A stretch of 20,755 nt of DNA from IMG/VR virus record IMGVR_UViG_3300047491_000336, positions 1-20,755 of that record; one strand, given 5' to 3'. This DNA comes from a virus. The position numbers were made by a program, and so were the translations under genes. Shown piece by piece: positions 3,001 through 20,595 of this stretch (position 1 is the stretch's first letter; every line of letters begins with the position of its first letter). The notes under the pieces are model-generated. The model made no database searches. It saw only the letters and a list, made by a program, of their open reading frames with translations, and was not told the origin of the DNA.

Positions 3001-3221
3001 GTTGCCTCCGGTAAAGGAAGAACCCCCTGGGGGGAGGGAGACACCGGCGCGGAAAGGGACGCGCCAGCAGTGGAACCCCCAGGGGGTGAGTCAAAATCTA
3101 TCACGTCCTTGTCGAAGTCTATCACATCCCCGACACCGCCTTGTTTCGCAACAGGCATGGCGTCGAAGTCTATGACTCCGCCAGCAGGACTATCAAAGTC
3201 AATAATCTCTTCGTTGTTCAT
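1..3221 (-). CDS. Phage polyvalent protein with ADP-ribosyltransferase-like domain (3' end outside window)
   Basis: One frame stays open from the ATG at 3221 to the window edge, giving 1,073 residues without a stop; the C-terminus is missing. Parts in order: four IDFD motifs in residues 7-44; a Pro/Ser-rich linker; an Ala/Gly glycine-zipper-like hydrophobic stretch at about 108-150; a long linker; a SAP/HeH-like helix pair at about 445-480 (MKVRDLRKEL...); a HELAE motif at 725-729 resembling a zincin helix; helical stretches; and at about 1042 the block VWHGT, then KFNKF, then WFATD with a following Ala and Phe. That block is the beta-strand/His signature of ART-PolyVal domains. Proteins of this kind are known from phages and conjugative elements and are thought to be injected with the DNA to modify host targets. 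The start lies 8 bases after the previous stop with no good ribosome binding site, so coupled translation is likely. ART assignment is fairly firm; SAP and zincin are tentative. Confidence 0.8.
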   Translation of the reverse strand, partial: MNNEEIIDFDSPAGGVIDFDAMPVAKQGGVGDVIDFDKDVIDFDSPPGGSTAGASLSAPVSPSPQGVLPLPEATDPGSVAFKERLQAEAMEKAKSEGALVAAGREAAMGVVPSLAGIAGGVAGGALLGSVVPVAGTIGGGIIGGIGAAIGADWLQGKAIEAIDPEAAARLQAEREAAAQVHPVATFAGSLAPQLLTMKPSLKNVAGAFNAAKTLLKGGMTAEYLATPAGKVALDQIFNVGLGAAIPGAQEAYAQYQAGDFNGARVLAQSLAGAIINEPNRFGVKLGLHPTLKEPEIVGTADAAPAAAAPEVVVPDSVQNPPRIAGLLPEARGPAREMPNLETMSDADVVDFARANGMETEGIPIQQLRRSMLTQERPAIDVEPEQPISAKPPTDAANQVPPIREAVSGTQGPETAKQGGAISPSGKKQPELINPERNRYIEPSRKISEMKVRDLRKELDSYGVPTTTRMNVLRLRNMVAQERNIRIEEERRMQRDEAAIARARKPARVMSTEEMRNRSAGQRDRQQGTGMAENLKREAFLEAKIREHMGDDRFIDKGTTVYDASGNELEVVGANRGYHTDQELGSPHLMYDVKNKATGEESVMSGKDLSREPRVAGADDGEVPFQTRENRPAVKGTTIDEHRANTEAMVKPLGGSWRAGKAEGHIGTWSDAKSGLTIEFRHAGIEGPKTGPRAGQEAMGMTQRTGRDKYVVTVDPKNGDITTAPHELAEIIGMAARKGIPEAHGRVVSKALKSVDPDIDLNTSEGAHRFAVAMETQEGRNKVADALRKAAPGAQDGFRSWLNNVIRFVNRLFGSNISEFKDKDFVKLAEGMRDFTALKRLAQADTALYARGHAMQNRANKHDAIFRELTKTWTGGGESVAERTMREREKRPAVFVSRGESHPDGPRKGKPLSAVAMVKINAGDAVADDFQKIVAAWRKVADEATSYASWDDIADAADLPVERVAAAFKNVHKASPGAVAFSVNRMGDNTYAKINKPDAFAFSQASDIPAAWSAWKSAHPDEYAELEKMRADVLKEQGYNVGPVWHGTRQKFNKFKPSSWFATDIRDAEAFGTT
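3022..3087. repeat. 12-bp GC-rich inverted repeat within the polyvalent gene
   Basis: ACCCCCTGGGGG at 3022-3033 and its exact reverse complement CCCCCAGGGGGT at 3076-3087 enclose 42 bases. Each arm is itself nearly palindromic. It lies in the Pro/Gly linker coding region. Confidence 0.6.
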
Positions 3222-4306: not shown

Positions 4307-5944
4307 TCACTTGTACTCGAAATCCCAACGGTTCAATACCTTGTGGATTGAGACCGCATCCGCATTCTGGATTAGGTTCACAACGACTTCGCCCGACTCG
4401 TAATTGGTAAATCCGTTCGTGGTCGCATACATGGACCAATCTACATAAGCGACCCCACTCTCCCCGCCGCCGCCGCCCTCGCCGTAACCGGACCCCCACT
4501 CAATATCGGACACCAAGTTACTCACCGGAAGCACAGGGACATAATTTGAAGTAACCGCATCCGCATCCGTTTTTGACAACACGACGGAATCAAAGTGAAA
4601 TACCGTTGAGTTCGTGGACAGGTACACATCCACAGTTCGCGGAGCGGGGGCGTTTGAGTAATAAGACCGGACGGGGGCCTCTACAAAGTCCCATACAGCG
4701 GTTTGCGCGGCATAGTGGTAAAAGACGTTTTCCGATAGCCCCCAGTTAGTCCCGATCTGATTCCCAAAGGTCGTATTGATCGCGTACTCCGTCCAGAAGT
4801 AGGCGCGGCCCTTGTTGTAACCCCACGCCGTTTTGAATGGGGCGGTATTGGTAATCGAGAACTCCGCGCCGACATTGGTGTGCGCGGACCAATCATAGGA
4901 CCAACTGCCGGAGTCCGGAGAATACGGATAGTATTGATCGCTCCATCCGTTTTGAGCGGTTGCATCGAGCCGGGCCTGTGCCAGGTCATACGGTGCCCCG
5001 TCCGTACCGCTGACAACCGGGTTCACCAGATTTGTGAACGGGTTGCTATAGTTCGTTGAGTACCCCCAGTGATTCGTGTACTTGGTCCCCGCCCACCATT
5101 GCGAATTGCCGAGCGTTGTGTGGAGGTTCGTAATGACCCTGCGCAAGCCGTCCCACCCGTAATCAACGGCGGCATAGCCCGCCTGGATGCTGGTGTTGGT
5201 GCTGTACAGGGTTACGGTGGCATTGGTTGTGGCATTGGTGTAAGCAACCTCCGTCCCGGCAGACGTGACAAGCTCGTAAATCCCGGTGGTTGCGAGATAA
5301 TAGGTGTTCGTGTAAATGCGCCCATAGTGCCGCCAGGAACCATCCGCCGCCCGGTAGGGGGTGTACCGCAGGAAGTTGGTCGGCACGTTCGCCACGGCGC
5401 AAAGGTTTGATTCGTTGAATGCCGTAATAACAAGAGGGCTCGCGGAACTGATGTAATAGAAGTCGCCAAGGCACTCATTCAAAATGAAACTCTTTAGCGA
5501 CTGAATGTTGTCCGCTTCGGAGCGGTAAAACCACGCTCGCGGGGACCCGACCGCAGAATAGAAATTGGACGTTGTGTTTCCCGCCGCCAACACAAGCCAC
5601 CGCTCCATGCAGGCATAAGTCGAATCAAGGGTCCGCACGTCCTTGGCGTTGAACAGCATACCCGTGGGATAGGCGTTGTAAAACGCGGGCAGGTCGTATA
5701 GGTGGGGCATTAGGTACAAGTCCCCCCAAAATGCGTCTTCGATCAGCCAGACATTCGTTTCGTAAAGGTCGTTCGTCCAACCCCCATAGGCCGCATTAGT
5801 CCACGCGGGCGCATTGGTAGCTGTGCTGACATACCGGAGGTGGTTCGTTGCGGGCCAGGCCGCCAACGCCCCCGAATCGTGCCACCCTGCCCCAGCGTTA
5901 AGCGCGAGGAATATGAATATCGCCGGAAGTATTTGCAACCTCAT
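4307..5944 (-). CDS. Secreted-type protein with signal peptide, Asn/Thr/Tyr/Trp-rich, unknown function
   Basis: I do not recognise the family. The open frame extends upstream to 6043, but the best start is the ATG at 5944: it has a GAGGA site 5 bases upstream and begins a classic signal peptide (MRLQILPAIFIFLALNAGAG). The mature part, about 520 residues, is rich in Asn, Thr, Tyr and Trp, with many TNxY/YTN strings typical of beta-rich extracellular or surface proteins, and has a Gly5 patch near residue 490. No catalytic motif is apparent. The start overlaps the end of the preceding 111-residue gene by 47 bases. Its position next to the fibre gene suggests a receptor-binding or host-surface role, but a signal peptide is unexpected for a virion protein assembled in the cytoplasm. 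A moron that changes the host envelope is an alternative. Confidence 0.72.
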   Translation of the reverse strand: MRLQILPAIFIFLALNAGAGWHDSGALAAWPATNHLRYVSTATNAPAWTNAAYGGWTNDLYETNVWLIEDAFWGDLYLMPHLYDLPAFYNAYPTGMLFNAKDVRTLDSTYACMERWLVLAAGNTTSNFYSAVGSPRAWFYRSEADNIQSLKSFILNECLGDFYYISSASPLVITAFNESNLCAVANVPTNFLRYTPYRAADGSWRHYGRIYTNTYYLATTGIYELVTSAGTEVAYTNATTNATVTLYSTNTSIQAGYAAVDYGWDGLRRVITNLHTTLGNSQWWAGTKYTNHWGYSTNYSNPFTNLVNPVVSGTDGAPYDLAQARLDATAQNGWSDQYYPYSPDSGSWSYDWSAHTNVGAEFSITNTAPFKTAWGYNKGRAYFWTEYAINTTFGNQIGTNWGLSENVFYHYAAQTAVWDFVEAPVRSYYSNAPAPRTVDVYLSTNSTVFHFDSVVLSKTDADAVTSNYVPVLPVSNLVSDIEWGSGYGEGGGGGESGVAYVDWSMYATTNGFTNYESGEVVVNLIQNADAVSIHKVLNRWDFEYK

Positions 5945-6233
5945 ACCATTCCTCATTAGAAGGAAACGGATTCGGCGCAGGCCCGTCATGGTCCTCTGCC
6001 GTTGCCGTATCAAGGAAACATCTAACCCAAGCCTTTGTTCCAAGTCCCGTTGTCTTGTTTCCGGCTATGTATGCAGTTCCAGTAAAAACAGACGATCCGC
6101 CCTCTGGTATGAAATGATTTACAAGCTGATTGTCGTCTATTTGGAATGCGCGGTCCAACTCCGCAGACGCCTCCAGCGACATTATGCGCCCGCGCAGGTC
6201 AGCGATAATCCCAAATAATTCGGATTCCGTCAT
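5898..6233 (-). CDS. Small fibre-associated protein (111 aa), unknown function
   Basis: The ATG at 6233 overlaps the stop of the 961-residue fibre-like gene as ATGA and has AAGGAG 10 bases upstream, so it is preferred over an in-frame ATG at 6266 that has no ribosome binding site. Residues 1-30 form an amphipathic helix with heptad spacing (MTESELFGIIADLRGRIMSL), likely a short coiled coil. The rest looks like a compact beta domain (FTGTAYIAG, KAWVRCFLD) ending near GDIHIPRA. The tight coupling to the fibre gene suggests a fibre tip, adaptor or fibre chaperone; this is inference from context, and no family was recognised. Confidence 0.7.
   Translation of the reverse strand: MTESELFGIIADLRGRIMSLEASAELDRAFQIDDNQLVNHFIPEGGSSVFTGTAYIAGNKTTGLGTKAWVRCFLDTATAEDHDGPAPNPFPSNEEWYEVANTSGDIHIPRA
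5950..5954 (-). promoter_or_regulatory. Ribosome binding site that fixes the start at 5944
   Basis: GAGGA lies 5 bases before the ATG at 5944. The neighbouring in-frame ATGs at 5956 and 6043 lack such a site. Confidence 0.7.
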
Positions 6234-9115
6234 GCCGGGAAGTCTCCTTGGGTTTCTGCTGTCCATGCGGTTGTTGCGTTTGAGCCGCCCACGCGATCAT
6301 CAGGACTTATCTTTATGGCCCTGTACTGTCCATTCGCCATCACGTCATAGCGCGAACTTCCTGCCTCCGTCCCGCACATCCCTCCGGTAATATGCGATAT
6401 GGCGGCGGACGGAGTGCCCACCTGAGCCACTTCAACCTTGTACCCTATGTTGCGCTGATACCCCTTGCCCTTGTACGTCGTTCGGATTGTGTGATAGGTG
6501 TAATACGTCGTCGAACCCAACGCCCATCCAGGAATAGTAAACGTGTCAACGTATGTCGTTACTTCCTTCTCTCCAACGTAACGCCCGTACTTGTCCTTGC
6601 GGTACGACACGCGGCCATACTCGTTTACGCCAAGCGGAGTAGGAGCGGAGGAAGCCCCGTCAACAATCGCAATGGATGACGTATATTTAGGCGTCTTGAC
6701 CTCGTTGCCGCTTGCAATACTCTGATCGGACCTGACATCAGTGCTTGTCTCCACGTCCCAATATCCGAACTCATTGAGCCGCTTACGTTGCACTTCAACT
6801 CGCCCAGCCGTGAATGAAGGAGCGGCGGCGGGTGACGCTACGTTTGAAACCGTTGTTTCCGTCAACACGGAATCGCCGGACGCCACCTTGTTCCCGCCAG
6901 AAGTCACGCTTGCCGTCGCGGTCTTTGTCTCAAGCGTATTGTCGAACAGGCCAAAATCGTTCTTGCGTGAAGTCGCAGTCTTTACCGTGCCAGCCGTTTG
7001 GGAAGTGATCGGAGTTTCCGCCGCAGCCTCGTTCCTGTCCGTGACGGACGACACAACATCGAACGCGGTTGCCGAAGTCTCCTTAACGGCCTCCGTTATA
7101 TCCGTTGCAGCCGTGCGGATCTCAAGCGTGTTATCAAACTTTCCAAACTCATTCTTGCGTGACGTGGCGGTCTTGATTGTGCCAGTCACTTGAGAAGTTA
7201 TCGGGGTCTCGGCGGCGGCATCATTGCGATCAGTAACCGAGGATAGCGTCTCAAACAGATTCGCACTTGTTTCCTTTACGGTCTCCGCAACATTCGTCGC
7301 CGTGCGGGTCTTGACCGTAACGTCCACGCGCCCGTAGTCATTGTAGCGGTTGTTTACGTCAACGATGGTTCCGGCAGTCTGCGAACCAGGCGGCGTATCG
7401 CCTGCCGTGTTGTTCTTGTCAACGCTTACCGTAACGGTCTCGAACGCGCTGATTTCGCTGGAAGTTTCAGCATCGGCAATCGTCTTGGCAATGTCCCTGT
7501 CGCGCTGTACGTCGAACGTGCCATCGGCGTTCTCTGTAATGCTCCGCTTCACGATCTCGCCAGCCGTCTCCGCAATGGCATAATTGGACGCAAGCGTAGC
7601 GTCCTTGATCTGCCGTCCAATGTCGGCCTTGACCTGCCTGAACTTGTCCTCGACAAGCGTGATGTCGTCTATTTCCTGTTCTTTGCTGACAACGGTTTTC
7701 TTGACCGTCTCGTATGTCCCATCCTCGTTCGGGCGATTCTGCGTCTCGACAACCGTGCCTTGAGCCGAGAAGGCAACGTCTGCCAGCGGTGCAGTCGCCG
7801 CCGTGTACCTCTCCGTGTCTTCCGTCCTGTCATCAGCGTCAAGATGCTGGTCGCTATGCGTAGCATCGGTTGAAGCTGTCTGATTGATGCTTGCGCTCTC
7901 GCGCACAACATCATCATACGTGCCATCAGGATTGATAACATGCTCACGTTTCAGCACCTTCCCTTGCGTTTGCGTGATCTCATACCCCGCAACGTCTGCG
8001 TCAAACAGGTTCTTGCCCTGTTTGGTCTTTTCCGTTCTGGCATACGATACCTCGGAATCATACTGGACAACCTCTTGCTTGACGGCCAGCGCGTCGCTAT
8101 GGACGGCATTCAGCGTACCATCGCCGTTGATAGACTTCTGGAGTTTGAGCGTATGCCCCTGCGTTACGGTTGAAATTGCATACGATGTCAGGTCGGCATC
8201 GTACAGGCTTTCGCCTGATTTCTCCGTAGTCGTAACGGAATCTGACTTGTCCGAAGTATAAGCCGCAATCTCGCCCTTGACAGCCTGCGTGACCTCCGTG
8301 ATTATGTCGGCGTTCAACTCGCGCCAGTAAATCTTCTGGTCGTAGGTATATCCCTGCCCGCCATACGTCGCGCCCAACGCACTTATCTCGGCATCCAGTA
8401 CCGTCTTGACGCGATCCTTCGGGACGCCCTGGATGTAGCGGTTGACGATAACCTTGCGGTTGCCCGTCTTCCCCTTGCTCTCCATGTGCCACTCATCGAG
8501 GCTCCATGTTTCCTCGTAATAGCCGGTGCCGTCTTCTTCCCATCCCGGCGACCGCCCTATGAGATACCACGGCCCTGTCTTCGTTTCGGTCCCTACGGTC
8601 AACGCAGATGCCGTTACGGAGGTCCTAGTGGCCTGCAACGCCTCCAGCGCGTCCTTGTTCAAGTCTCCCCATCGTATCTTGAGGATACGGGAATCCTCCT
8701 GAACCGCAGCCGTACCGCTCGGGTGGGCGATATTAGCGGCCTCCGTAGTGCCGCTCCCCACAATGTCAATGTCGCCAGCCAGTCGCGGAAGTTCACCAGT
8801 AAGGCTTGTCCCCTTAAACCCAAGAGCCAACGTCTCGCGCAACGTCAGGCTTTCGGTCCCGCCAGCGCGATCCCGCACAACAATGTCTTCAACCTTCAGG
8901 ACGCGGTAAACGCCGGTATATGCCTTCGTGTTGGCCTTCGGATTGGTGACGCTCGTTCTGGCGTTCAGTACCGCCAGCAATTCCGTTCTCGATTGCAGCG
9001 GCAAATTGCGCCATTCGCGCACAAGCCGCTTGTCGCCCAGTTGGACGATGCACTCACCGTCCATCCAATAGGCTTTGCTCTCATCCAATGCAATCGCGGA
9101 ATTGGCATCACTCAT
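6230..9115 (-). CDS. Large repetitive fibre-like structural protein (961 aa)
   Basis: The start at 9115 overlaps the previous stop as ATGA, with a GAGGG site 9 bases upstream. Residues 1-265 form a non-repetitive N-terminal region with several Trp-rich strands (about 180-215), a plausible virion-attachment domain. Residues about 268-830 are a tandem array of diverged repeats of roughly 50-68 residues. Most carry a turn of the form N-x-[DFY]-G-x-[FYLW]-[DEN] preceded by a Q-x-G-x-[VI] strand. The last 130 residues (from about NEYGRVSYRKD) are a distinct Tyr/Thr-rich C-terminal domain with Gly and Cys, suitable as a tip. Length, Thr/Ser/Asp/Glu content and beta-repeat periodicity fit a trimeric tail fibre or spike shaft. 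No enzymatic motif was seen. Fibre function is inferred from architecture and position downstream of the capsid genes. Confidence 0.82.
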   Translation of the reverse strand: MSDANSAIALDESKAYWMDGECIVQLGDKRLVREWRNLPLQSRTELLAVLNARTSVTNPKANTKAYTGVYRVLKVEDIVVRDRAGGTESLTLRETLALGFKGTSLTGELPRLAGDIDIVGSGTTEAANIAHPSGTAAVQEDSRILKIRWGDLNKDALEALQATRTSVTASALTVGTETKTGPWYLIGRSPGWEEDGTGYYEETWSLDEWHMESKGKTGNRKVIVNRYIQGVPKDRVKTVLDAEISALGATYGGQGYTYDQKIYWRELNADIITEVTQAVKGEIAAYTSDKSDSVTTTEKSGESLYDADLTSYAISTVTQGHTLKLQKSINGDGTLNAVHSDALAVKQEVVQYDSEVSYARTEKTKQGKNLFDADVAGYEITQTQGKVLKREHVINPDGTYDDVVRESASINQTASTDATHSDQHLDADDRTEDTERYTAATAPLADVAFSAQGTVVETQNRPNEDGTYETVKKTVVSKEQEIDDITLVEDKFRQVKADIGRQIKDATLASNYAIAETAGEIVKRSITENADGTFDVQRDRDIAKTIADAETSSEISAFETVTVSVDKNNTAGDTPPGSQTAGTIVDVNNRYNDYGRVDVTVKTRTATNVAETVKETSANLFETLSSVTDRNDAAAETPITSQVTGTIKTATSRKNEFGKFDNTLEIRTAATDITEAVKETSATAFDVVSSVTDRNEAAAETPITSQTAGTVKTATSRKNDFGLFDNTLETKTATASVTSGGNKVASGDSVLTETTVSNVASPAAAPSFTAGRVEVQRKRLNEFGYWDVETSTDVRSDQSIASGNEVKTPKYTSSIAIVDGASSAPTPLGVNEYGRVSYRKDKYGRYVGEKEVTTYVDTFTIPGWALGSTTYYTYHTIRTTYKGKGYQRNIGYKVEVAQVGTPSAAISHITGGMCGTEAGSSRYDVMANGQYRAIKISPDDRVGGSNATTAWTAETQGDFPA
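6244..6249 (-). promoter_or_regulatory. Ribosome binding site that fixes the start at 6233
   Basis: AAGGAG lies 10 bases before the ATG at 6233 and inside the end of the fibre gene, allowing coupled re-initiation at the ATGA overlap. Confidence 0.75.
6626..8314 (-). repeat. Array of about nine 50-68-residue protein repeats in the fibre-like gene
   Basis: Repeat units begin near residues 268, 330, 395, 463, 529, 592, 655, 719 and 781 of the 961-residue protein; the next related turn is at 831. Turn motifs read NGDGTLN, NPDGTYD, NEDGTYE, NADGTFD, NDYGRVD, NEFGKFD, NDFGLFD, NEFGYWD and NEYGRVS. Spacings between them are 65, 68, 66, 63, 63, 64, 62 and 50 residues; the unit at 268 is the most degenerate. 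The units at 592-718 are nearly identical over the segment SVTDRNxAAAETPITSQ. Confidence 0.8.
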
Positions 9116-9519
9116 GCGCTGTAACCCTCATCCTGCAAACCGCTCAAGGTGTAAGATTCAAGCGTACCGAACTTCACGTTCAGATTGGTCACATCATCAC
9201 GCAGATAGACCATTTGCGCCGTCTTGACGGCACGCAAGAAACGATCCTCGGCATCCGGTACCGGATTGGCCGTGAACATATTGCTGTCCTGTAAATAGAA
9301 GTCTATCCCGGCAGAGACGGCAGGGTAATACTTGGCGTCAATGTCTATGTCGGTTGCCGTGTCGGCAGGGGCTTCAACGGTCATCCCGGTCAGGTTTTGC
9401 AGGTCGGCACAGGTCTTGTAGACGGCCTCCAGGAAAACCGACTGGTACGTTTCGGCGGCAGCAGACACACCGAACTTGATAGCCTTCGCGTCAAGCAGGC
9501 GTTGCGTGTTGATGGACAT
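9112..9519 (-). CDS. Small virion protein, possible head-tail adaptor (135 aa)
   Basis: The start at 9519 follows an AGGGGGTG ribosome binding site 5 bases upstream and lies 12 bases after the preceding stop; its own stop overlaps the fibre gene start as ATGA. The protein is mixed helical and acidic: an N-terminal helix (RLLDAKAIKFG...), an Asp-rich middle (TDIDIDAKYY), and a helix FLRAVKTAQMVYLRDD before a hydrophilic tail. It is the size of head-completion or adaptor proteins and sits between the capsid and fibre genes, where such genes usually lie. No family signature was recognised, so the adaptor role is inference from position and size. Confidence 0.7.
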   Translation of the reverse strand: MSINTQRLLDAKAIKFGVSAAAETYQSVFLEAVYKTCADLQNLTGMTVEAPADTATDIDIDAKYYPAVSAGIDFYLQDSNMFTANPVPDAEDRFLRAVKTAQMVYLRDDVTNLNVKFGTLESYTLSGLQDEGYSA

Positions 9520-9531
9520 GACGCCACCCCC

Positions 9532-9966
9532 TTATTTGCGGTCAATAACGGCAGTCACCCGAACCGTGATGGACGTGTCAACAGTGGCCGTATGCGCGGA
9601 TACCGTCAACTTGTCATTGCAGATAACCGGACAAGCGAAGTCAGCCGCACCAGTCCCGTTCGTGCTTACCTCGACGGAGGGATACAGCATGACGGTATTA
9701 GCCGCCGCAGCCGTAGTGTAGAGCGTTTGGGCGGATAGACCACCGGCCCCGCTTGTCGCCACGGTTACGGTACAGGTCGTATTGGCGGGCGTAACCGCCA
9801 CCTGCAATCCCTTGACATACCCGGCATAGGTGACTTCACTCGTAGCCGTTACCGGCGTTGTCGAGGTCGTCACTCCGGTACACGTCAGCACCGGCACAAC
9901 TTCCGGCTGGGCCAGGCAGGACACGGCAACACAGACACCGAAGCACACCGCGATAATCTTTTTCAT
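9532..9966 (-). CDS. Small signal-peptide protein 2 (144 aa), beta-rich, unknown
   Basis: The start at 9966 is supported by AAGGAG 8 bases upstream. The first 19 residues are a classic signal peptide (MKKIIAVCFGVCVAVSCLA) with probable cleavage before Gln; Cys17 is preceded by AVS, a poor lipobox, so a lipoprotein is less likely. The mature part is rich in Thr, Val and Ala in beta-strand patterns and has three Cys (in LTCTG, TTCTV and FACPVICN regions, one a pair) that could form disulfides outside the cytoplasm. It ends in VTAVIDRK. It shares an ordered set of blocks (GYV, TVT, LYT, NTVMLY, terminal RK) with the neighbouring signal-peptide gene, suggesting a tandem duplication. Its role is unknown; surface decoration of the virion or of the infected cell are the main options. 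Confidence 0.75.
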   Translation of the reverse strand: MKKIIAVCFGVCVAVSCLAQPEVVPVLTCTGVTTSTTPVTATSEVTYAGYVKGLQVAVTPANTTCTVTVATSGAGGLSAQTLYTTAAAANTVMLYPSVEVSTNGTGAADFACPVICNDKLTVSAHTATVDTSITVRVTAVIDRK

Positions 9967-9982
9967 GCTTGCATCTCCTTGT

Positions 9983-10013
9983 AAAAATGGAGCCGTGGTT
10001 TGACCGCCACGGC
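9983..10013 (-). terminator. Terminator-like hairpin between the two signal-peptide genes
   Basis: A perfect 7-bp stem (GCCGTGG/CCACGGC, 9992-9998 with 10007-10013) with an 8-base loop is followed, in the minus-strand transcript, by TCCATTTTTAC. It begins 14 bases after the stop of the upstream gene. The U-run starts 4 bases after the stem, so termination may be partial. There is little room for a promoter before the next gene, so readthrough is probably required. Confidence 0.6.
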
Positions 10014-10026
10014 ACGGTTTCCATCA

Positions 10027-10401
10027 CTACTTGCGCGTAACGGTGACATTCGTGGTAACGCCGGGGGTCGTAACAGCAACGCCCGAAACGTAGATCACGA
10101 TGTTCGTCGCCAGGTTGGTCGTCGCGTCCTGGTAGTAGATCGTATTGGTGGCCATCGTAAGCGTTACCGTTCCGGCAACACTCGCGGTCTGGACCACCAC
10201 GTTCGACACGTACCCACCAGGCAGCGTCGTCGCGTCAAGCACCACCAGCTTGTCAACGGTCAACGTCGAATCAGTCCCGTCGGTCGTAACGTAATACGTT
10301 CCAACGCGGGTCTCATTCGTGTATCCGGTAACAGCCGTATCGGCGGCAAACGCTCCAATGGCGACAATCGCGGCAACAAGCGCAATCAGGATTTTCTTCA
10401 T
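10027..10401 (-). CDS. Small signal-peptide protein 1 (124 aa), beta-rich, unknown
   Basis: An in-frame ATG exists at 10452, but that start would place its first codons inside a strong RNA hairpin and lacks a ribosome binding site. The ATG at 10401 has AAGGAGAG just upstream and begins a signal peptide (MKKILIALVAAIVAIGAFA, cleavage before ADTAV). The mature part is about 105 residues, Thr/Val/Asn-rich with beta-strand alternation and no Cys, and ends in TTNVTVTRK. It follows the major capsid gene and precedes a similarly built gene, with which it shares GYV, TVT, IYY and NIVIY blocks. The family is unknown. In most phages this slot holds a capsid accessory protein, but the signal peptide argues for export across the inner membrane, which is odd for this position. 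Confidence 0.75.
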   Translation of the reverse strand: MKKILIALVAAIVAIGAFAADTAVTGYTNETRVGTYYVTTDGTDSTLTVDKLVVLDATTLPGGYVSNVVVQTASVAGTVTLTMATNTIYYQDATTNLATNIVIYVSGVAVTTPGVTTNVTVTRK

Positions 10402-10421: not shown

Positions 10422-10450
10422 GGGGACACGGGCCTCCGCCCGTTGTCCCC
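10422..10450 (-). other. Strong RNA hairpin just after the capsid gene
   Basis: GGGGACACGGGC (10422-10433) pairs with GCCCGTTGTCCCC (10438-10450) as a 12-bp GC-rich stem with one bulged base and a 4-base loop (GGAG in the transcript). It begins 17 bases after the capsid stop. No U-tract follows, so it is more likely an mRNA 3'-end stabiliser, processing site or weak pause element than an intrinsic terminator. Confidence 0.7.
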
Positions 10451-10467
10451 ATGTTCGCCAGCGATCC

Positions 10468-11433
10468 TTACGCCCCGGCATTGCCGCGCAGCGCGTGCGG
10501 ACGGTCACAGCCCGTCACGAACGACATACGAACGCGGGCCTGCCACACGTCGGGATTGTCCGACAGGACGTTGCTGTAGGTATTGGGCTTGACGCGCCAG
10601 TACCAGTACAGCTCGTTCTCCGTCGCCTTGTCGGTCATACCGAACCACGCGGTATCGCTCGACAGGTAATCCCACACCGTAATGCTCATGCCGTACCGGC
10701 CACCCTGCTTGTAAGGGTTGTCGTCGTTCAGGAACACGCCAGGCTTCTGCACAGAGCCAAGAATCACGGCGGCGGTGTCTTCCAGCGCAGCCGGGACAAT
10801 CAGCTTCTTCATGACCAGCGGACGCTTCAGACCGCGCTCGTTGACGTGCTTGCGGAAGTTAAGCCGCATCGTCGCCAACGCTCCCTGCGTCAGAGCCGCA
10901 GCCGTCTCAAGGTTGCTCCACGTACCCTGCCCCTTATCCTCCATCGGACGGGCGGAATCGAACAGGTACATGCCGTCGGCGCACAGCCACGAAGCCCCAG
11001 TACCGAACCCGGTATTGAACGCATCGGCGGCGTAGTACTCAACGGTGTCCTTGGTGGACTGCATCAGCGCATCCATCTGCTTCGAGATCACGACATACTG
11101 GTCGGTCTCTCGCAGGCGGGCCTCAATGCGGATCGCCAAGCGGAAATCTTCCGGCGTATAGGTGTTGTCAAAGCCCTGGACAGGCTCGGCCAGCGGCAAC
11201 CCGTTAGCGTCACGGTTCTTGGGCACCAGCCCAAGCTGCGTGACATACGAGTGCTTCACGTAGTCCTTCGAGGTGCTCTCCACCTTGAAGAACTGCAAAC
11301 CCTGGACGGGTTGCGAGAAATCGCGTTTCCTGACGAACTCGAACTGCGTGTTCAACAGGTCGGCGAAGTTTTCCTTCATCAACATACCGGGCGCGGAATA
11401 GCTCGGCACAACTGCACTAGCGGTAACGCTCAT
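10468..11433 (-). CDS. Major capsid protein (321 aa)
   Basis: The product is assigned as the capsid subunit from context and layout: it follows portal, scaffold and a small decoration-like gene, and has a strong ribosome binding site (AAAGGAG, 8 bases upstream). The N-terminal 30 residues are flexible (VTASAVVPSYSAPG), followed by an extended loop-rich region (DFSQPVQGLQFFKV, 40-55) and a long central helix region (ETDQYVVISKQMDALMQST, about 125-145) like the HK97-fold spine helix. C-terminal strands around 285-315 (YSNVLSDNPDVWQARVRMSFVTGCDRPHAL) resemble the capsid P-domain end. At 321 residues it is in the usual range for HK97-fold capsids with a separate scaffold. I did not recognise a close family. 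Confidence 0.8.
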   Translation of the reverse strand: MSVTASAVVPSYSAPGMLMKENFADLLNTQFEFVRKRDFSQPVQGLQFFKVESTSKDYVKHSYVTQLGLVPKNRDANGLPLAEPVQGFDNTYTPEDFRLAIRIEARLRETDQYVVISKQMDALMQSTKDTVEYYAADAFNTGFGTGASWLCADGMYLFDSARPMEDKGQGTWSNLETAAALTQGALATMRLNFRKHVNERGLKRPLVMKKLIVPAALEDTAAVILGSVQKPGVFLNDDNPYKQGGRYGMSITVWDYLSSDTAWFGMTDKATENELYWYWRVKPNTYSNVLSDNPDVWQARVRMSFVTGCDRPHALRGNAGA

Positions 11434-11460: not shown

Positions 11461-11952
11461 TTAGGCCGCAGCCGCTTCCAGCACGGTCGTAAGCACCTTG
11501 ACCAAGGCGCGGTTCTTCGTGTCCGTCGCCAGGTCTTGAACGGGGTTCACGTCGGACATAAGCCCGACCACTTCCAGCGCGGGATTCGAGGTGTCACCCT
11601 CATCCATCGTCACGACGTTGGAAGTCACGTCAATGCCATAGGCGATACCGATATTTGCGTCATCCACGGAGCCGTCAAGCTCGTTGATGATGAAAATATG
11701 GTCCCGCGTAATGACGCCAACGGACGCCTTCGTGGTGTTGTTGTTGGGATCGGTCTGATCCTCAAGGGCCAGATACTTGATGCCACCAGTACCGGCATCA
11801 GCATCGGACGCGCAGGCAACCAACAGGCCGCTGGTGTTCGTGTAAAGGAACTGACCAGCCTTCCAAGTCTGATTGTCCGCGACATTGATTTCGCGCACTT
11901 CCATCACCGGACCCGAATAAAGCATCGGGTTCTGCGGAGTCAACGTAGCCAT
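11461..11952 (-). CDS. Probable capsid decoration/stabilisation protein (163 aa)
   Basis: The gene has a strong AAGGAG site 8 bases upstream and ends 28 bases before the capsid start. The protein is Asp/Thr/Val-rich with beta-strand alternation and no membrane segment. It has a short extended N-terminus (TPQNPMLYSGPVMEVRE), an interior of strands and turns (WKAGQFLYTNTSGLLVAC, ASVGVITRDHIFII) and an Ala-rich C-terminus. Small beta-rich proteins directly before the capsid gene are commonly head decoration proteins in tailed phages. That role is inferred here from position and composition, not from a recognised motif. Confidence 0.72.
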   Translation of the reverse strand: MATLTPQNPMLYSGPVMEVREINVADNQTWKAGQFLYTNTSGLLVACASDADAGTGGIKYLALEDQTDPNNNTTKASVGVITRDHIFIINELDGSVDDANIGIAYGIDVTSNVVTMDEGDTSNPALEVVGLMSDVNPVQDLATDTKNRALVKVLTTVLEAAAA

Positions 11953-11970: not shown

Positions 11971-12363
11971 TTACTTGTCTTTGTCAGGCACAGGACCGTA
12001 AACGGTTCCATCAGCCGCCTGCGTCCTGTACTCGTCGTTTTCCCCATTCTTGGATGCCTGATATGACACTTGCGAGTCAATCGCAGCACGCTCAAGATGG
12101 GCCTTGTGTTCTTTGTCCGGGCGCATGAACAGCGGGTCGCCAAGGTGCTTCACGCCTTCCACGGCGATATAGCCCTCGTCCTCGTACCTACCCGATTCGG
12201 CGATGTTCCTGTCGCCGAAGAAGAAGTGCATCCCCTCTGCCCTTGCTCCCAGTTGTTTCTTCACCTTGGCAACAAGTCGCGCACGTTCGTCAACAAACGG
12301 TTCACTCACCATTTCCACTTTGGGGGCGAGCTTCCTAGGATTCTGACTGATGATTGAAGGCAT
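11971..12363 (-). CDS. Hypothetical phage protein between scaffold and decoration genes (130 aa)
   Basis: The start at 12363 has GGAG 9 bases upstream and lies 6 bases after the scaffold stop. The protein is charged and soluble: a helical N-terminal part (DERARLVAKVKKQLG, residues 25-39), a central aromatic turn (GMHFFFGDRN, about 44-53), then FMRPDKEHKAHLERAAIDSQ and a Gly/Asp/Pro-rich tail. No family was recognised. Its position in the head-assembly cluster suggests a structural or assembly accessory role. Confidence 0.7.
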   Translation of the reverse strand: MPSIISQNPRKLAPKVEMVSEPFVDERARLVAKVKKQLGARAEGMHFFFGDRNIAESGRYEDEGYIAVEGVKHLGDPLFMRPDKEHKAHLERAAIDSQVSYQASKNGENDEYRTQAADGTVYGPVPDKDK

Positions 12364-12369
12364 GATATT

Positions 12370-13062
12370 TTACTCCAGGGTATCGTCTCTCTTGTTGGTT
12401 TTCTTGGCACCGGAAACAATCAGCCACGCCTCCTGTTCGGGAGTGAGGCCCGATTTCCGGCCAGGCGCAGCCGCCGCAGACCTTGCAGCGATATTGCCGC
12501 GAGGCTCCTTGACAGCCTTCGTGCCTGTTCCCATCTGCTTGGCAATCGCCACCAGTTTTGCTTCCGGCAGGTCAGCCAATTCTGGGTTTGCCTTGAGTCC
12601 TTCAATGGCAGACTTCAGTTCCGGATCAAGGCTACTGCCCTTCACGCGCTCGATTTCACCGCGCCAATACGAATCACGATCCTGCAACACGGTTGCAAAC
12701 TCCTTGCGGAGATTGGCCGTAAGCTGTTTCATGGCCGCTAGCGGGTCTTCGATCACCTTGTCAGGCTCCAATTCCTCGATCCAGTCCTTCTCTTCCTGTT
12801 TGACGGGTTGTGCCGCCTGCTGCTGGATGCGAAGCATCGTTTCCATGCTGCCCTTGAGTTCAGCCAACTGCTGACTCATGCGCGTAAACTCTGCCTGCTT
12901 CTCCTTCAACGCGGCTTCCGTATCCCGTAGGGCTTTCTCGCGCCCCGTGGGTTCCGCCTTCGTGGAATCAACGGTAGTCTCTTGCGAGGCCGCGTCATCC
13001 GTTCCGACTTCCTCTGCCGTGGATAGTTCCTCTGGGGAGTCCACGTTAAGAGTGTCATTCAT
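12370..13062 (-). CDS. Capsid scaffolding protein (230 aa)
   Basis: This hydrophilic protein has the composition of a scaffold: an acidic, Ser/Thr-rich disordered N-terminus (residues 1-40); a coiled-coil stretch (REKALRDTEAALKEKQAEFTRM, about 41-62, continuing to about 82); a Lys/Glu-rich centre; and a basic C-terminal tail (about 190-225) with an Arg/Lys-rich helix, as used for capsid binding. There is no Ser/His/Asp protease signature, so a separate or absent protease is implied. It follows the portal and a small gene and precedes the capsid gene, the usual scaffold slot. Its ribosome binding site is AAGGAG 10 bases upstream. Confidence 0.8.
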   Translation of the reverse strand: MNDTLNVDSPEELSTAEEVGTDDAASQETTVDSTKAEPTGREKALRDTEAALKEKQAEFTRMSQQLAELKGSMETMLRIQQQAAQPVKQEEKDWIEELEPDKVIEDPLAAMKQLTANLRKEFATVLQDRDSYWRGEIERVKGSSLDPELKSAIEGLKANPELADLPEAKLVAIAKQMGTGTKAVKEPRGNIAARSAAAAPGRKSGLTPEQEAWLIVSGAKKTNKRDDTLE

Positions 13063-13112
13063 CTACTTGCGCTCCTTGTTTAACCCGCATACACCATGCA
13101 CGCGGGAATCCA

Positions 13113-13373
13113 TTAACCGCCATCATCGGCTTCGGCCTTCGCCCGCTTGTTCAGCTTCAGCGAATTGGCCTTCTCCGCGATCATGCGGATAGCCCCAAGG
13201 CGGTCTTGAAAGTGTTTCGGGTTTTCAGTTGTCTCCAGCCGGTCCCGACAAATCTCGATCAACTCATGCAGAAACGGCACCATGTACCGCTCGAACTGTT
13301 CGGACTCGTAAAAGTCAATGAATCCGTTGACGAACTCATGGTTGTCGAAAACGCTTTTGGGCTTATCCGTCAT
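13113..13373 (-). CDS. Small hypothetical protein translationally coupled to portal (86 aa)
   Basis: Its ATG overlaps the portal stop as ATGA, with only a weak GGGGG upstream, so translation is probably coupled. The protein is helical and charged (FIDFYESEQFERYMVPFLHELIEIC, about 18-42, then RLETTENPKHFQDRLGAIRMIAEKANSLK) with a short Lys/Asp-rich tail. No motif was recognised. Being tied to the portal gene and ahead of the scaffold suggests a role in procapsid assembly, such as portal assembly or a minor head protein; this is inference. Confidence 0.7.
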   Translation of the reverse strand: MTDKPKSVFDNHEFVNGFIDFYESEQFERYMVPFLHELIEICRDRLETTENPKHFQDRLGAIRMIAEKANSLKLNKRAKAEADDGG

Positions 13374-15622
13374 TGCATCGCCCCCATCTGTCCCGCCATT
13401 GCGTTGCCGGTGGCCTCACCGGGAGTCTGATTGGCAGTCATGCCGTTAGGCGTCTGGCTCATCTGCGAAGCAAGTTGCCCCTCGTACTGCTTGAGCAACT
13501 TCGTCATGTGGATGTGCCGGTCAAGAATCTGGACGTTCGGGTTGGATTCCTCGGCGCCCTTCCACTTCATGCGCTCCTGCTCATGCTGGGCAAGATGCAC
13601 TTCATGGGCCTCGCCAAGATTCGGATTAAGCACTTGCCCAAGGTCAATCATGGCCCGCGTCTCATGTTGCGCGAGTTGTATGGCGTCACGGTTTCCGTCA
13701 GGCTTGAACCAGCGGCTAACGTCAACGCCCTTCACGATCTTACCGAAGATGTCCTTGCCAACGGTGGGCAGGTCCATAACGGAGCCGAAAATAGGGGCAA
13801 GCGTCTGTATCGCCTGCGTCATGGTCTGGATGTTCAGCGCGTTCTGCTCGAACTCGTCAACGATGTTGATTTCAACGTCAAACTCACCGAACAACTCGCC
13901 GGGATTAATCTTGCGCTGGATGTTGTTTTCCGTGATGGAAAGCACCTGATCGTTATCCCCGTAGAGATGCCACAGGCCAAGGCATTTGCGCCCGTGGAAC
14001 TCAAGAAACTGGTGCAGGACATACTTCGCCAGCATGATATGAGGATTGGCCGCGTTCTGGCTCACAATGCTGCTTTCGGTGGCAGAAGTACGCGCCCCGG
14101 CATACTCGCCCATCAGCGGCTTGTCGGTCCCGGCAGCGCGGTTGGCATCCTCATCGAAGTATTGCAGGTGCAACAGCCCGTTCTGCTGGATGTCAACAAT
14201 CTGGAACTCATCAACGCTGTTCTGGCTATCAACCCAGTACACCTTATCCTTGCGGAATCGCATGTCCTGCGTATAAACCTCGCCGCGAACAGCCTTCAGC
14301 GGCTTGTTGTTCTGCAAGGTCCGGTTGTCAATCAACTGCTGGCGCGTGATGGTCTGCTCGTCGTAATCCCCGCGCAACGCCTGGGCATACGAAAAATGGT
14401 AAAGCCGCCCATCGTCATCCGGAAGGCAATGAAGCATCTCAAACGGCCATTCATCATCAGGATCGGGATTGCGCTCGAACCGGACGCACACGGCGTCATC
14501 AAGCGAGTTTCCGGCGAACGTAAGCCACCATTTCTGCATCGGAAGCTTGTCGTCCCAGTTCCCCTCGTCATCCATCGGCAGCATGACATAGGCGTCCGTT
14601 ACCCTGAAAAGCCCGGTCTCTGAACGGTTAATGCCGCCCACCACTCCGTCTGACGTGGTGCGGGTATCGTCAATGGCGTTGTCAGATTTGCTTCCGTCCC
14701 ACTGGTCCTGCATCGTCAGCTTGTCGGTATTCAGGTAGAACCCGTTGGCAATCTCATTCTGCTGGATCGTGGATAGCGGCACGTAGTCATCCACGCAGAT
14801 GCAGGATTGCCGCTGAATGTCTCCAATGGCCGGGTCAGCCCAGAAGTTTTCAATGGGCACCGGCCCCAGTGACGGCTGATTTTCCACGATCTTGAGTTCA
14901 TCATCAAACCGCCATCCGATAATCGGCGGGTCTTCGTTTGGAACGGTAGGGTTCCCGTACACAGGCACGCGGGATACACGCTTCGCCAACTGCCTGTTCC
15001 ACCCAACGCACACCGGGTAGTTGCCATACTTGACGGTCATGAACAGGGTATCAATGGCCTTGCGGTCGAACTTGTCCTTCTTCCGGGCCCACCGCGCCAG
15101 GATGTTGTGCTGTTCGGCCTGGTCGTAGGCTTGCGCATCGGAAATGAACGAGTTGGTCCCAAGGATCGGTACATATTTGTACGGGTCTGGCTTGGACGTA
15201 AGGACGGATGCAAGCTGGGCCGTAAGCGTTCGGACCTGCCGAAAGAACAGGGTAGACCCCTTTTTGTATGACTTCGTGAGCGTGATGTCACGCCCAACGG
15301 TATCCACGGTCCCTTCGCTGTTCTCGTATGCCTGACGGTCATGCCGCTGCCGCTCGCGCTCCCGGATGGTGGCGTTTTGGCCACACTTGTACATCTCATC
15401 GGCCAGCTTCCAGATTTCCTCGTAGGGATACCGGCTTGCCCGGTTATGCTCGAACTGCCGCTTGACGACCTCTCTCGCCTTGGCTACCAGGTCTTCATCA
15501 TCGGCAAAGTTGATGCGCGGCGGCTGGTCTAAAGACTGAACATCATCCTCGACTTCGGCGTCAGGAATGGCCAGAACGGCATCTTTGGCTTGTTCGTCAA
15601 AAGTGACTGATTCGTCATTCAT
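13370..15622 (-). CDS. Portal protein (750 aa)
   Basis: The length and layout fit a P22-type portal: an N-terminal clip/wing region with Tyr/Trp-rich segments (KQFEHNRASRYPYEEIWKLADEMYKCGQNA), a long middle with a stem (RLYHFSYAQALRGDYDEQTITRQQ), and a C-terminal barrel/helical tail. The last 60 residues are Met/Gln/Ala-rich (QMSQTPNGMTANQTPG...), as in portal C-terminal barrels. The frame extends upstream to 15682, but that start lies inside the intrinsic terminator stem; 15622 is preferred. There is no Shine-Dalgarno site at 15622, and a possible promoter lies 7 bases upstream, so the mRNA may be leaderless. The gene starts the head operon, with a scaffold and capsid downstream. Confidence 0.82.
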   Translation of the reverse strand: MNDESVTFDEQAKDAVLAIPDAEVEDDVQSLDQPPRINFADDEDLVAKAREVVKRQFEHNRASRYPYEEIWKLADEMYKCGQNATIRERERQRHDRQAYENSEGTVDTVGRDITLTKSYKKGSTLFFRQVRTLTAQLASVLTSKPDPYKYVPILGTNSFISDAQAYDQAEQHNILARWARKKDKFDRKAIDTLFMTVKYGNYPVCVGWNRQLAKRVSRVPVYGNPTVPNEDPPIIGWRFDDELKIVENQPSLGPVPIENFWADPAIGDIQRQSCICVDDYVPLSTIQQNEIANGFYLNTDKLTMQDQWDGSKSDNAIDDTRTTSDGVVGGINRSETGLFRVTDAYVMLPMDDEGNWDDKLPMQKWWLTFAGNSLDDAVCVRFERNPDPDDEWPFEMLHCLPDDDGRLYHFSYAQALRGDYDEQTITRQQLIDNRTLQNNKPLKAVRGEVYTQDMRFRKDKVYWVDSQNSVDEFQIVDIQQNGLLHLQYFDEDANRAAGTDKPLMGEYAGARTSATESSIVSQNAANPHIMLAKYVLHQFLEFHGRKCLGLWHLYGDNDQVLSITENNIQRKINPGELFGEFDVEINIVDEFEQNALNIQTMTQAIQTLAPIFGSVMDLPTVGKDIFGKIVKGVDVSRWFKPDGNRDAIQLAQHETRAMIDLGQVLNPNLGEAHEVHLAQHEQERMKWKGAEESNPNVQILDRHIHMTKLLKQYEGQLASQMSQTPNGMTANQTPGEATGNAMAGQMGAMQ

Positions 15623-15660: not shown

Positions 15661-15694
15661 TAAAAACAAAAAAGCCGCGCATGATTAGCGCGGC
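15661..15694 (-). terminator. Intrinsic terminator after the terminase/co-chaperonin block
   Basis: A perfect 7-bp stem (GCCGCGC/GCGCGGC, 15674-15680 with 15688-15694) with a 7-base loop is followed in the minus-strand transcript by TTTTTTGTTTTT (15673-15662). It lies 29 bases after the co-chaperonin stop and just before the portal gene. Confidence 0.9.
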
Positions 15695-15723
15695 CCAGGT
15701 GGGAAGTACTAATGCAGAAGACT

Positions 15724-18735: not shown

Positions 18736-20595
18736 TCACACGCCCCGATAATCACCCCCGTAATCATCGTTATATCTAACACCGGTACCACTTCTTACCA
18801 CACTTGTCGAGAAATTATACATGTCCCCGCACCACCGCATCGGTATCTGGCACATATACGCCAACGCCGTACACCCATGATCGTCCTTTTTCCTCGGCGT
18901 CTCCTTCCGGTTCTTCAGGTCATTCCCGCTCCGGTATTCCTCCCACACCCACCCGCTCAACTCCCGCAACAAGTTCTGGCACGTCCTGAAAATGTATATC
19001 CTCGCCGCCCCGTTCGCCCCCGCCGTGAACGGATGCTTCTTCTCGTAATCCACCCCGAACAACGCCTTCATCACCGGAACGTAATGCTCGCTGTTCTTCC
19101 CGCTCGCCGAGTTGCATTGCAACCCGCTCGCCCTGTAAAAGTACCCGTATGGCCTGCCGCTCCCCGCGTCCTTCGACCCGAACGACCGGCTATCAATCAC
19201 CGTCTTCGCGTAACACTCCTTCACCTGCAATTCCTCGAACATCTCCAGCATCATCCCGCTCTGCGCACCCATGCTCGCCATCCCCAGGCTCTTCCTCTTG
19301 TTCCCACTCAACCGCACAATGTCCGCCACATTCTCGTTAATCAGCCGCCCACTCGAATAGAACTCCCGGTAGATAACCACATTGCTCACACTCCCATCCT
19401 TCCCCGGAGGACTCACCGCCGCCCACAAGCACGCCGTCGGATTCGTCACCCCATGATCTATCCCCCGATACCGTGTCCACGTCCCCGGAATCTCGAACGG
19501 CTCTATCACATGGACCACCGGGTCAAACTCGTCAATCACCAGCCCGCTCGTCTGGTGCCACTCCCCCAATACCCTCGCACGCCCCTCCCGCAACGTCTTG
19601 ATATTCCGCAACCGCGTCGGCTCATGTATCCACTTCTCAAACGCCTTCTGCTTCTCACTCTCAGGGTATATCCAGTCCGGAACATCCATCAAACTCGTGT
19701 TGTAGCACGATACGCTATGACCCCTCTTCTGCGTCCCCGTCAAAAACCGCTGCAACCACCCGCCACCACCCGTATCCGGCCTCCCCTCTACCCGGTGCGG
19801 CGTCAATGTGAAAAACTGCTTCCCCTTTACCGTCCTGCACCGCTCATCCACCGCATCAAACAACGCCTCCGGCGGCTGCTCATCCCACATGAATCCATCA
19901 TACGCGCTCGACTCGTAATTGCTCTGACTCTGGCTATACGCATGGAACTTCAGTATCGTCCCGTTCGTCAACTCCACCAACGGCATCCGATCAAAGTTCG
20001 GTTCCTTTCTCCTTCTTCCAGGCCCCTTCCCCTCACTAAACCGCCCATACACCCCCAACACCTCATCCGGCACGTACTCCTTCACCCTGGGCCATACCGT
20101 CGTCTTGATATGACTCCACTCATAACTCCCAAACGCCATCGTCAATTGCCGATCCACCCCCCTAAACGGCCTCCACACCACCCCATGCTCCGCAAATACC
20201 GGCCACGTCTTGTCCAACTCCAATATCCCACTCAATACCGCCTTCACCACCCCCACCGTCGTCTTCCCAACACGGTTCGGCGCAACCACCGCCATGATGT
20301 CATGCTCTTCCCAGTCATTCAAAAAATCCAACTGCTCCTGACTGTTCGGCGCATAATACTTCAACTTGTTCCTCATCCAGTCATTCCGCAACCACTCAAA
20401 CCGCTCCCTCACCCCCTTGTGCGCCCTCATGTAATCATGCCTAAATAACAACACCTTCCGCCCAAGAAACAACCGCGCCCTCTCTACATCATGCACCGCC
20501 TCAACCAACTTCTTGTTCTCCAAGTACTCCCGGTACGTTATCCCCCTGTACTCATCACCATCCAAGTAAAACGTGTACGTAAACGGATTCGCCAT
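18736..20595 (-). CDS. terL: Terminase large subunit (619 aa)
   Basis: The two-domain packaging motor is clear. The ATPase has Walker A APNRVGKTT (105-113), Walker B FMWDE (235-239, with D238 and E239 the acidic pair) and a coupling segment TLTPHR (264-269). The nuclease domain has a first acid in GIDHG (D380), a second around VIDSR (D469) and the C-terminal DDHGCTAL (571-578) typical of phage TerL. The protein packages DNA into the procapsid with the portal and cuts the genome. It is the first gene after a good promoter, with GGGAGAGGG before the start at 20595. A small terminase subunit is not recognised in the window. Confidence 0.93.
   Translation of the reverse strand: MANPFTYTFYLDGDEYRGITYREYLENKKLVEAVHDVERARLFLGRKVLLFRHDYMRAHKGVRERFEWLRNDWMRNKLKYYAPNSQEQLDFLNDWEEHDIMAVVAPNRVGKTTVGVVKAVLSGILELDKTWPVFAEHGVVWRPFRGVDRQLTMAFGSYEWSHIKTTVWPRVKEYVPDEVLGVYGRFSEGKGPGRRRKEPNFDRMPLVELTNGTILKFHAYSQSQSNYESSAYDGFMWDEQPPEALFDAVDERCRTVKGKQFFTLTPHRVEGRPDTGGGGWLQRFLTGTQKRGHSVSCYNTSLMDVPDWIYPESEKQKAFEKWIHEPTRLRNIKTLREGRARVLGEWHQTSGLVIDEFDPVVHVIEPFEIPGTWTRYRGIDHGVTNPTACLWAAVSPPGKDGSVSNVVIYREFYSSGRLINENVADIVRLSGNKRKSLGMASMGAQSGMMLEMFEELQVKECYAKTVIDSRSFGSKDAGSGRPYGYFYRASGLQCNSASGKNSEHYVPVMKALFGVDYEKKHPFTAGANGAARIYIFRTCQNLLRELSGWVWEEYRSGNDLKNRKETPRKKDDHGCTALAYMCQIPMRWCGDMYNFSTSVVRSGTGVRYNDDYGGDYRGV

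Follow-up and report, generated by a model that had tools for sequence, protein, structure and literature searches.

Two small proteins with conserved putative export signals are encoded directly behind the capsid gene of an uncultivated virus

The window analysed here is the whole 20,755-base IMG/VR record IMGVR_UViG_3300047491_000336, a linear fragment from an uncultivated virus, in which every recognised gene lies on the minus strand. The genes run in the order terminase large subunit, exonuclease-like, GroES-like, portal, scaffold-like, decoration-like and Mu gpT-like capsid, followed by two genes designated SP1 and SP2, a conserved 135-aa gene, a 961-aa fibre-like gene, a small gene, SP3, a 341-aa gene and a last gene of more than 1,000 aa, which runs off the end of the fragment (Table 1). 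A sequence-only reading of this DNA had described three signal-peptide proteins inside a virion morphogenesis operon, next to capsid and fibre genes. The operon was recovered as described, with the terminase, portal, scaffold-like, decoration-like and capsid genes upstream on the same strand, and the capsid neighbourhood is correct. The fibre neighbourhood holds loosely, because the 961-aa gene has no family match in Pfam or PHROGs and is called fibre-like from its repeats and size only. This gene contains a 124-nt direct repeat (6928-7051 and 7120-7243, 192-nt spacing, 73% identical), and the motif IDFD occurs four times at the N-terminus of the last gene (about 3080-3220, minus strand). No informative family match was obtained for the 135-aa gene. 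A pattern scan of 84,980 species genomes found no relative of the capsid or portal protein, and therefore gave no link to a prophage or a host.

Table 1. Positions of the genes and RNA hairpins of the window and of the related genes in other genomes (a slash marks the predicted cleavage)
Feature	Position	Strand	Remarks
Terminase large subunit	18736..20595	-	phrog_2, E 1e-16; tblastn to annotated terminases
Portal protein	13370..15622	-	20-23% identical to annotated portal proteins (tblastn, E down to 8e-7)
Head-decoration-like protein	11461..11952	-	phrog_49, E 0.0023, weak
Major capsid protein, Mu gpT-like	10468..11433	-	Pfam PF25209, E 1.7e-9, above cut-off; phrog_371
Strong RNA hairpin, capsid-SP1 gap	10422..10451	-	no T run; hairpins also in this gap of L002 and L006
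SP1, 124 aa	10027..10401	-	signal peptide residues 1-19 (10401-10345); predicted cleavage AFA/ADT
Terminator-like hairpin, SP1-SP2 gap	9992..10013	-	T-rich tail; similar hairpins in L002 and L006
SP2, 144 aa	9532..9966	-	signal peptide residues 1-19 (9966-9910)
Conserved 135-aa gene after SP2	9112..9519	-	kept in L002 and L006; connector-like by position only
961-aa repeat-containing, fibre-like protein	6230..9115	-	N-terminal part conserved in L006
SP3, 545 aa	4307..5944	-	signal peptide residues 1-19, MRLQILPAIFIFLALNAGA/GW
SP1 orthologues	L002:9467-9862; L006:15064-15519		
SP2 orthologues	L002:9914-10339; L006:15581-16003		
HTVC023P gp45, gp46	L010 11394-12050; 12084-13469		

The three signal-sequence genes were found where that reading had placed them, and the computed starts agree with the ribosome binding sites that it had reported. 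The sequence AAGGAG is well spaced upstream of the ATG codons of SP1 (10401) and SP2 (9966). The SP3 start is weaker, with GAGGA five bases upstream of the ATG at 5944, which lies 47 nt within the preceding gene. SP1 begins with MKKILIALVAAIVAIGAFA before the mature start ADT, and SP2 with MKKIIAVCFGVCVAVSCLA before QPE. SP1, SP2 and SP3 have the features of a Sec signal peptide, with a positive N-terminus, a hydrophobic core within about 9-15 residues, small side chains at -3 and -1, and a start preceded by a ribosome binding site. Signal peptides were scored with our own rule-based script, distinct from SignalP. With the chosen starts SP1, SP2 and SP3 all passed, whereas the other 14 of the 17 window genes failed. 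When random N-termini were drawn 5000 times from the protein's own composition, the observed score was reached in 0 of 5000 draws for SP1, in 0.46% for SP2 and in 0.04% for SP3. The same signal-peptide features are present in the SP1 and SP2 proteins of two related contigs, and no lipobox was found in SP1 or SP3.

Relatives were collected by pattern scans of viral contigs, and the search for homologues with the same synteny found orthologues of SP1 and SP2, each with a signal peptide and a suitable ribosome binding site, in two contigs from other metagenomes, L002 and L006. The order capsid, SP1, SP2, 135-aa gene is identical in the three genomes. A third contig, L003, ends inside the capsid gene, and the capsid-SP1-SP2 arrangement was not found elsewhere in the collections searched. 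As the pair is present in three genomes only, the profiles are shallow, and failed homologue and fold searches therefore say little. SP1-SP3 and the orthologues gave nothing above noise in Pfam, PHROGs, NCBIfam and PADLOC, and PDB sequence searches gave no match of note.

The capsid proteins of L002 and L006 are 81% and 78% identical to that of the window, and the L006 portal is 66% identical. The corresponding values are 41% and 31% for SP1 and 43% and 49% for SP2. The signal parts have diverged to about the same extent as the mature parts, with 32-56% identity, and charge, hydrophobic core and cleavage site are kept in all three genomes despite this divergence of the letters. The predicted cuts fall directly before a conserved mature start, which is ADT in SP1 (AFA/ADT in the window, VLA/ADT in L002 and AFS/ADT in L006) and QPE in SP2 (CLA/QPE, AFA/QPE and ACG/QPE, respectively), and every SP1 and SP2 start has its matching ribosome binding site. 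Where an export signal is under selection, its properties are expected to be kept while its letters change, and this pattern is the strongest evidence on this point. The export that had been proposed for all three products appears highly probable for SP1 and SP2, whose signal peptide, cleavage site and start are kept in three genomes.

Cleavage of SP2 in the window is predicted either at CLA/QPE by signal peptidase I, or before the lipobox cysteine Cys17 by signal peptidase II. A lipobox-type cysteine is present two to four residues before QPE in all three genomes (Cys17 in the window, Cys14 in L002 and Cys16 in L006); Cys14 of L002 stands one residue short of the position rule of the PROSITE PS00013 type. 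Because of this cysteine SP2 may be a lipoprotein, though the signal-peptidase-I site adjoins the lipobox. In mature SP2, Cys29 and Cys65 are invariant in the three genomes, and this pair would suit a disulfide that forms in an oxidising compartment beyond the cytoplasm. The AF2 model of SP2, built from three sequences, shows a beta sandwich, with low confidence (mean pLDDT 54.6). VIA-align with this model gave a phage baseplate (Z 5.3), a phage needle (Z 4.8), the lambda tail fibre (Z 4.5) and unrelated beta domains; these matches do not stand out, being mixed beta domains matched by a low-confidence model in a range of little meaning. Foldseek against BFVD with the same low-confidence model returned nothing at E <= 0.001. 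Mature SP1 is rich in Thr and Val, and its AF2 model was unusable (mean pLDDT 34.6). The products had also been called beta-rich, which for SP2 agrees with the low-confidence model and for SP1 has no usable model behind it.

SP3 differs in its distribution. Searches of viral contigs, phage records and the sister contigs, which end earlier or lack SP3, gave no relative, so that the search for shared synteny, successful for the pair, failed for SP3 in every collection searched. We consider SP3 likely to be exported, as judged from one sequence, since no relative was found. The protein is rich in Tyr, Trp, Asn and Thr, and contains 20 TN dipeptides against 4.3 expected. SP1 contains 5 against 1.3 expected, and a clear TN excess is limited to SP1 and SP3 among the window proteins, an oddity that the two share.

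Both gaps around SP1 contain RNA hairpins. The capsid-SP1 gap has a strong hairpin, lacking a T run, in all three genomes (z -3.3, -5.5 and -3.5). The hairpins of the SP1-SP2 gap, also in all three and each with a T-rich stretch after it, have z values of -1.0 to -2.2, which are not clearly above the composition expectation. The hairpin sequences differ among the three genomes, and Rfam gave no match. The hairpins may set the relative amounts of capsid, SP1 and SP2. A further strong terminator-like hairpin with a T run lies before the portal gene (15672-15696, minus strand).

Distant relatives of the capsid protein among isolates and complete genomes are the Pelagibacter phages HTVC023P and HTVC027P, DSL-LC04, Planktothrix phage Pag-Yong1 and podovirus ct2G2228. 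They resemble the window in gene order, which in them is terminase-portal-GroES-scaffold-capsid; in the window the GroES-like gene comes before that for the portal. In HTVC023P, HTVC027P, DSL-LC04 and Pag-Yong1 the capsid gene is followed by genes for small proteins without a signal peptide, one of them annotated as a cement protein. These proteins start with MATTTF, MSTTLF or MTTTLT, in contrast to the signal peptide of SP1, and a signal peptide in this slot is therefore a trait of the window's lineage. Homology of SP1 or SP2 to the cement or neighbouring proteins of the relatives was considered but not supported, as the profile comparison gave no usable similarity (hhalign probability about 0.1% in the comparison with cement proteins, with shallow profiles).

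HTVC023P has two adjacent hypothetical genes with signal-peptide-like starts, gp45 and gp46, in the structural region downstream of its capsid gene. In contig L004 a 588-aa fibre-like ORF with a signal-peptide-like start (12249-14015) lies downstream of a Mu gpT-like capsid gene; this ORF has no clear ribosome binding site and no match among phage records. In two distant capsid relatives, L020 and L005, reading of the ORF lists revealed no obvious signal-peptide gene after that for the capsid. It is also known that genes for curli export and fibres are present in some genomes of HTVC023P-type and other pelagiphages and of pelagimyophages (PMC9599517). Because of gp45 and gp46, the curli genes and the L004 ORF, exported proteins in such clusters are not unique to the window.

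The conserved export signals suggest that SP1 and SP2 act in the host envelope or at its surface, and are not packaged conventionally. The reading that we prefer is that SP1 and SP2, together with SP3, are envelope proteins made late in infection, which mask or change the receptor surface, and we give this whole statement a probability of about 0.4. SP1 and SP2 would be true substrates of the Sec pathway, produced together with the capsid protein. SP1 would be freed by signal peptidase I, and SP2 would be freed likewise or held by a lipoprotein anchor. After cleavage the products, which are small and rich in Thr and Val, would gather in the periplasm or the outer membrane late in infection; we infer the late timing from the operon position and a diderm host from the short signal peptides. 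There they would mask or modify the receptor that the phage itself uses, or the surface around it. Progeny would then not be wasted on debris and dying cells, and competitors would be shut out. SP3, found in this genome only, would add one more exported protein, with an identical or similar role. In support of this reading, the signal peptides and cleavage sites of SP1 and SP2 are kept in all three genomes despite the divergence of these proteins, the cysteines of SP2 suit an oxidising compartment, and SP1, SP2 and the capsid gene form one co-directional operon whose intergenic hairpins recur in all three genomes. Cor and Llp serve as precedents, as do the curli components of HTVC023P-type pelagiphages (PMC9599517) and the two signal-peptide genes of HTVC023P.

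It is known that Cor of phage T1 and Llp of phage T5 are outer-membrane lipoproteins that block FhuA, and they are thought to stop progeny from adsorbing to cell remnants; Cor acts early after the start of infection (PMC13164509). Against late masking, SP1 and SP2 lie in a structural cluster, whereas Cor acts early; their slot holds an annotated cement protein and others in the isolated relatives; and two unrelated proteins exceed the needs of one receptor blocker. Family, PDB and fold searches found nothing in sequence or fold that resembles an exclusion protein, Cor and Llp included, the fold search having been made with the low-confidence SP2 model.

The main rival, for which gene position speaks, is that SP1 and SP2 are decoration or head-fibre proteins, which would be exported by Sec, fold in the periplasm with the SP2 disulfide, and coat the particles only on exit at lysis. 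In the relatives the same slot is occupied by a cement protein and another small protein, and SP1 stands directly behind the major capsid gene in all three genomes, as a Pam1-type cement protein does. Such a protein is expected to be cytoplasmic and to have no signal peptide, whereas SP1 has one. The small size and Thr/Val-rich composition are consistent with decoration, and the strong hairpin behind the capsid gene, kept in all three genomes, could set the SP1 level relative to the capsid. The SP2 model does match phage baseplate, needle and tail-fibre domains (Z 3.7-5.3), but these weak matches come from a model with a mean pLDDT of 54.6, in a range of little meaning. Moreover, a decoration-like gene is already present upstream of the capsid gene, and the profiles of SP1 and SP2 show no usable similarity to the cement or neighbouring proteins. 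To our knowledge, no tailed phage adds particle parts via the periplasm, which also counts against this explanation, and we regard it as unlikely.

Alternatively, the hydrophobic N-termini might not be export signals at all, and SP1 and SP2 would be cytoplasmic head proteins, with an N-terminus that serves as an assembly arm or is cut by a phage protease. The position among head genes would suit such proteins, as would the small proteins without signal peptide behind the capsid gene of the isolated relatives. This explanation appears improbable in view of the charge, core and AXA-type site kept in three of three genomes, with the cut before the conserved mature start, and of the lipobox cysteine of SP2, equally kept, and its invariant cysteine pair.

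SP1-SP3 might also build a surface layer or an adhesin on the infected cell, causing aggregation or an altered surface, in a role like that of the pelagiphage curli. The presence of curli export and fibre genes in HTVC023P-type pelagiphages and pelagimyophages (PMC9599517), the TN enrichment in SP1 and SP3, and the large size and Tyr/Trp/Asn/Thr-rich composition of SP3 speak for it. However, neither Pfam nor NCBIfam gave a match of SP1-SP3 to the curli families (CsgA/B, CsgG/F), and no gene for an outer-membrane secretion channel was recognised within the 20.8-kb fragment, so that we hold this role to be quite improbable. A spanin-like role in lysis, for which SP2 could be the outer-membrane lipoprotein, is very improbable and was rejected for the absence of a second membrane segment, as neither protein has a clear one in all three genomes, neither resembles the inner-membrane spanin partner, no recognised lysis gene adjoins them, and SP1-SP3 have no lysis family match.

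The keeping of signal peptides in two genes between the capsid gene and later virion genes indicates a link between assembly and the envelope that is non-standard for tailed phages. Among the papers searched there was no direct precedent for tailed-phage virion proteins with signal peptides. If late receptor masking is true, SP1 and SP2 would represent a new family of factors for exclusion or against readsorption, produced along with the virion. If they are instead on the particles, they would be an exception to the rule that cytoplasmic proteins alone make up the particles of tailed phages. Under either reading the SP1-SP2 pair is a specific and testable target.

Compared with known systems, the cement and other small proteins of the Pam1-like and HTVC023P-like podoviruses (DSL-LC04, Pag-Yong1, ct2G2228 and HTVC023P) are likewise small and occupy the same slot, next to a Mu gpT-like capsid gene and in a similar gene order, but have no signal peptide and no detectable similarity to SP1 or SP2. 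The pelagiphage curli, a type VIII secretion system, are likewise exported proteins from distantly related podovirus-type phages, although their gene position differs from that of SP1 and SP2 and no curli family match was obtained in the window. SP1 and SP2 differ from Cor of T1, which is early, and from Llp of T5 in their position in the structural cluster, in being paired, and in having no sequence or fold similarity found to them. They are, however, alike in being small phage-encoded proteins with predicted Sec export, and SP2 may share the lipoprotein anchor of Cor and Llp.
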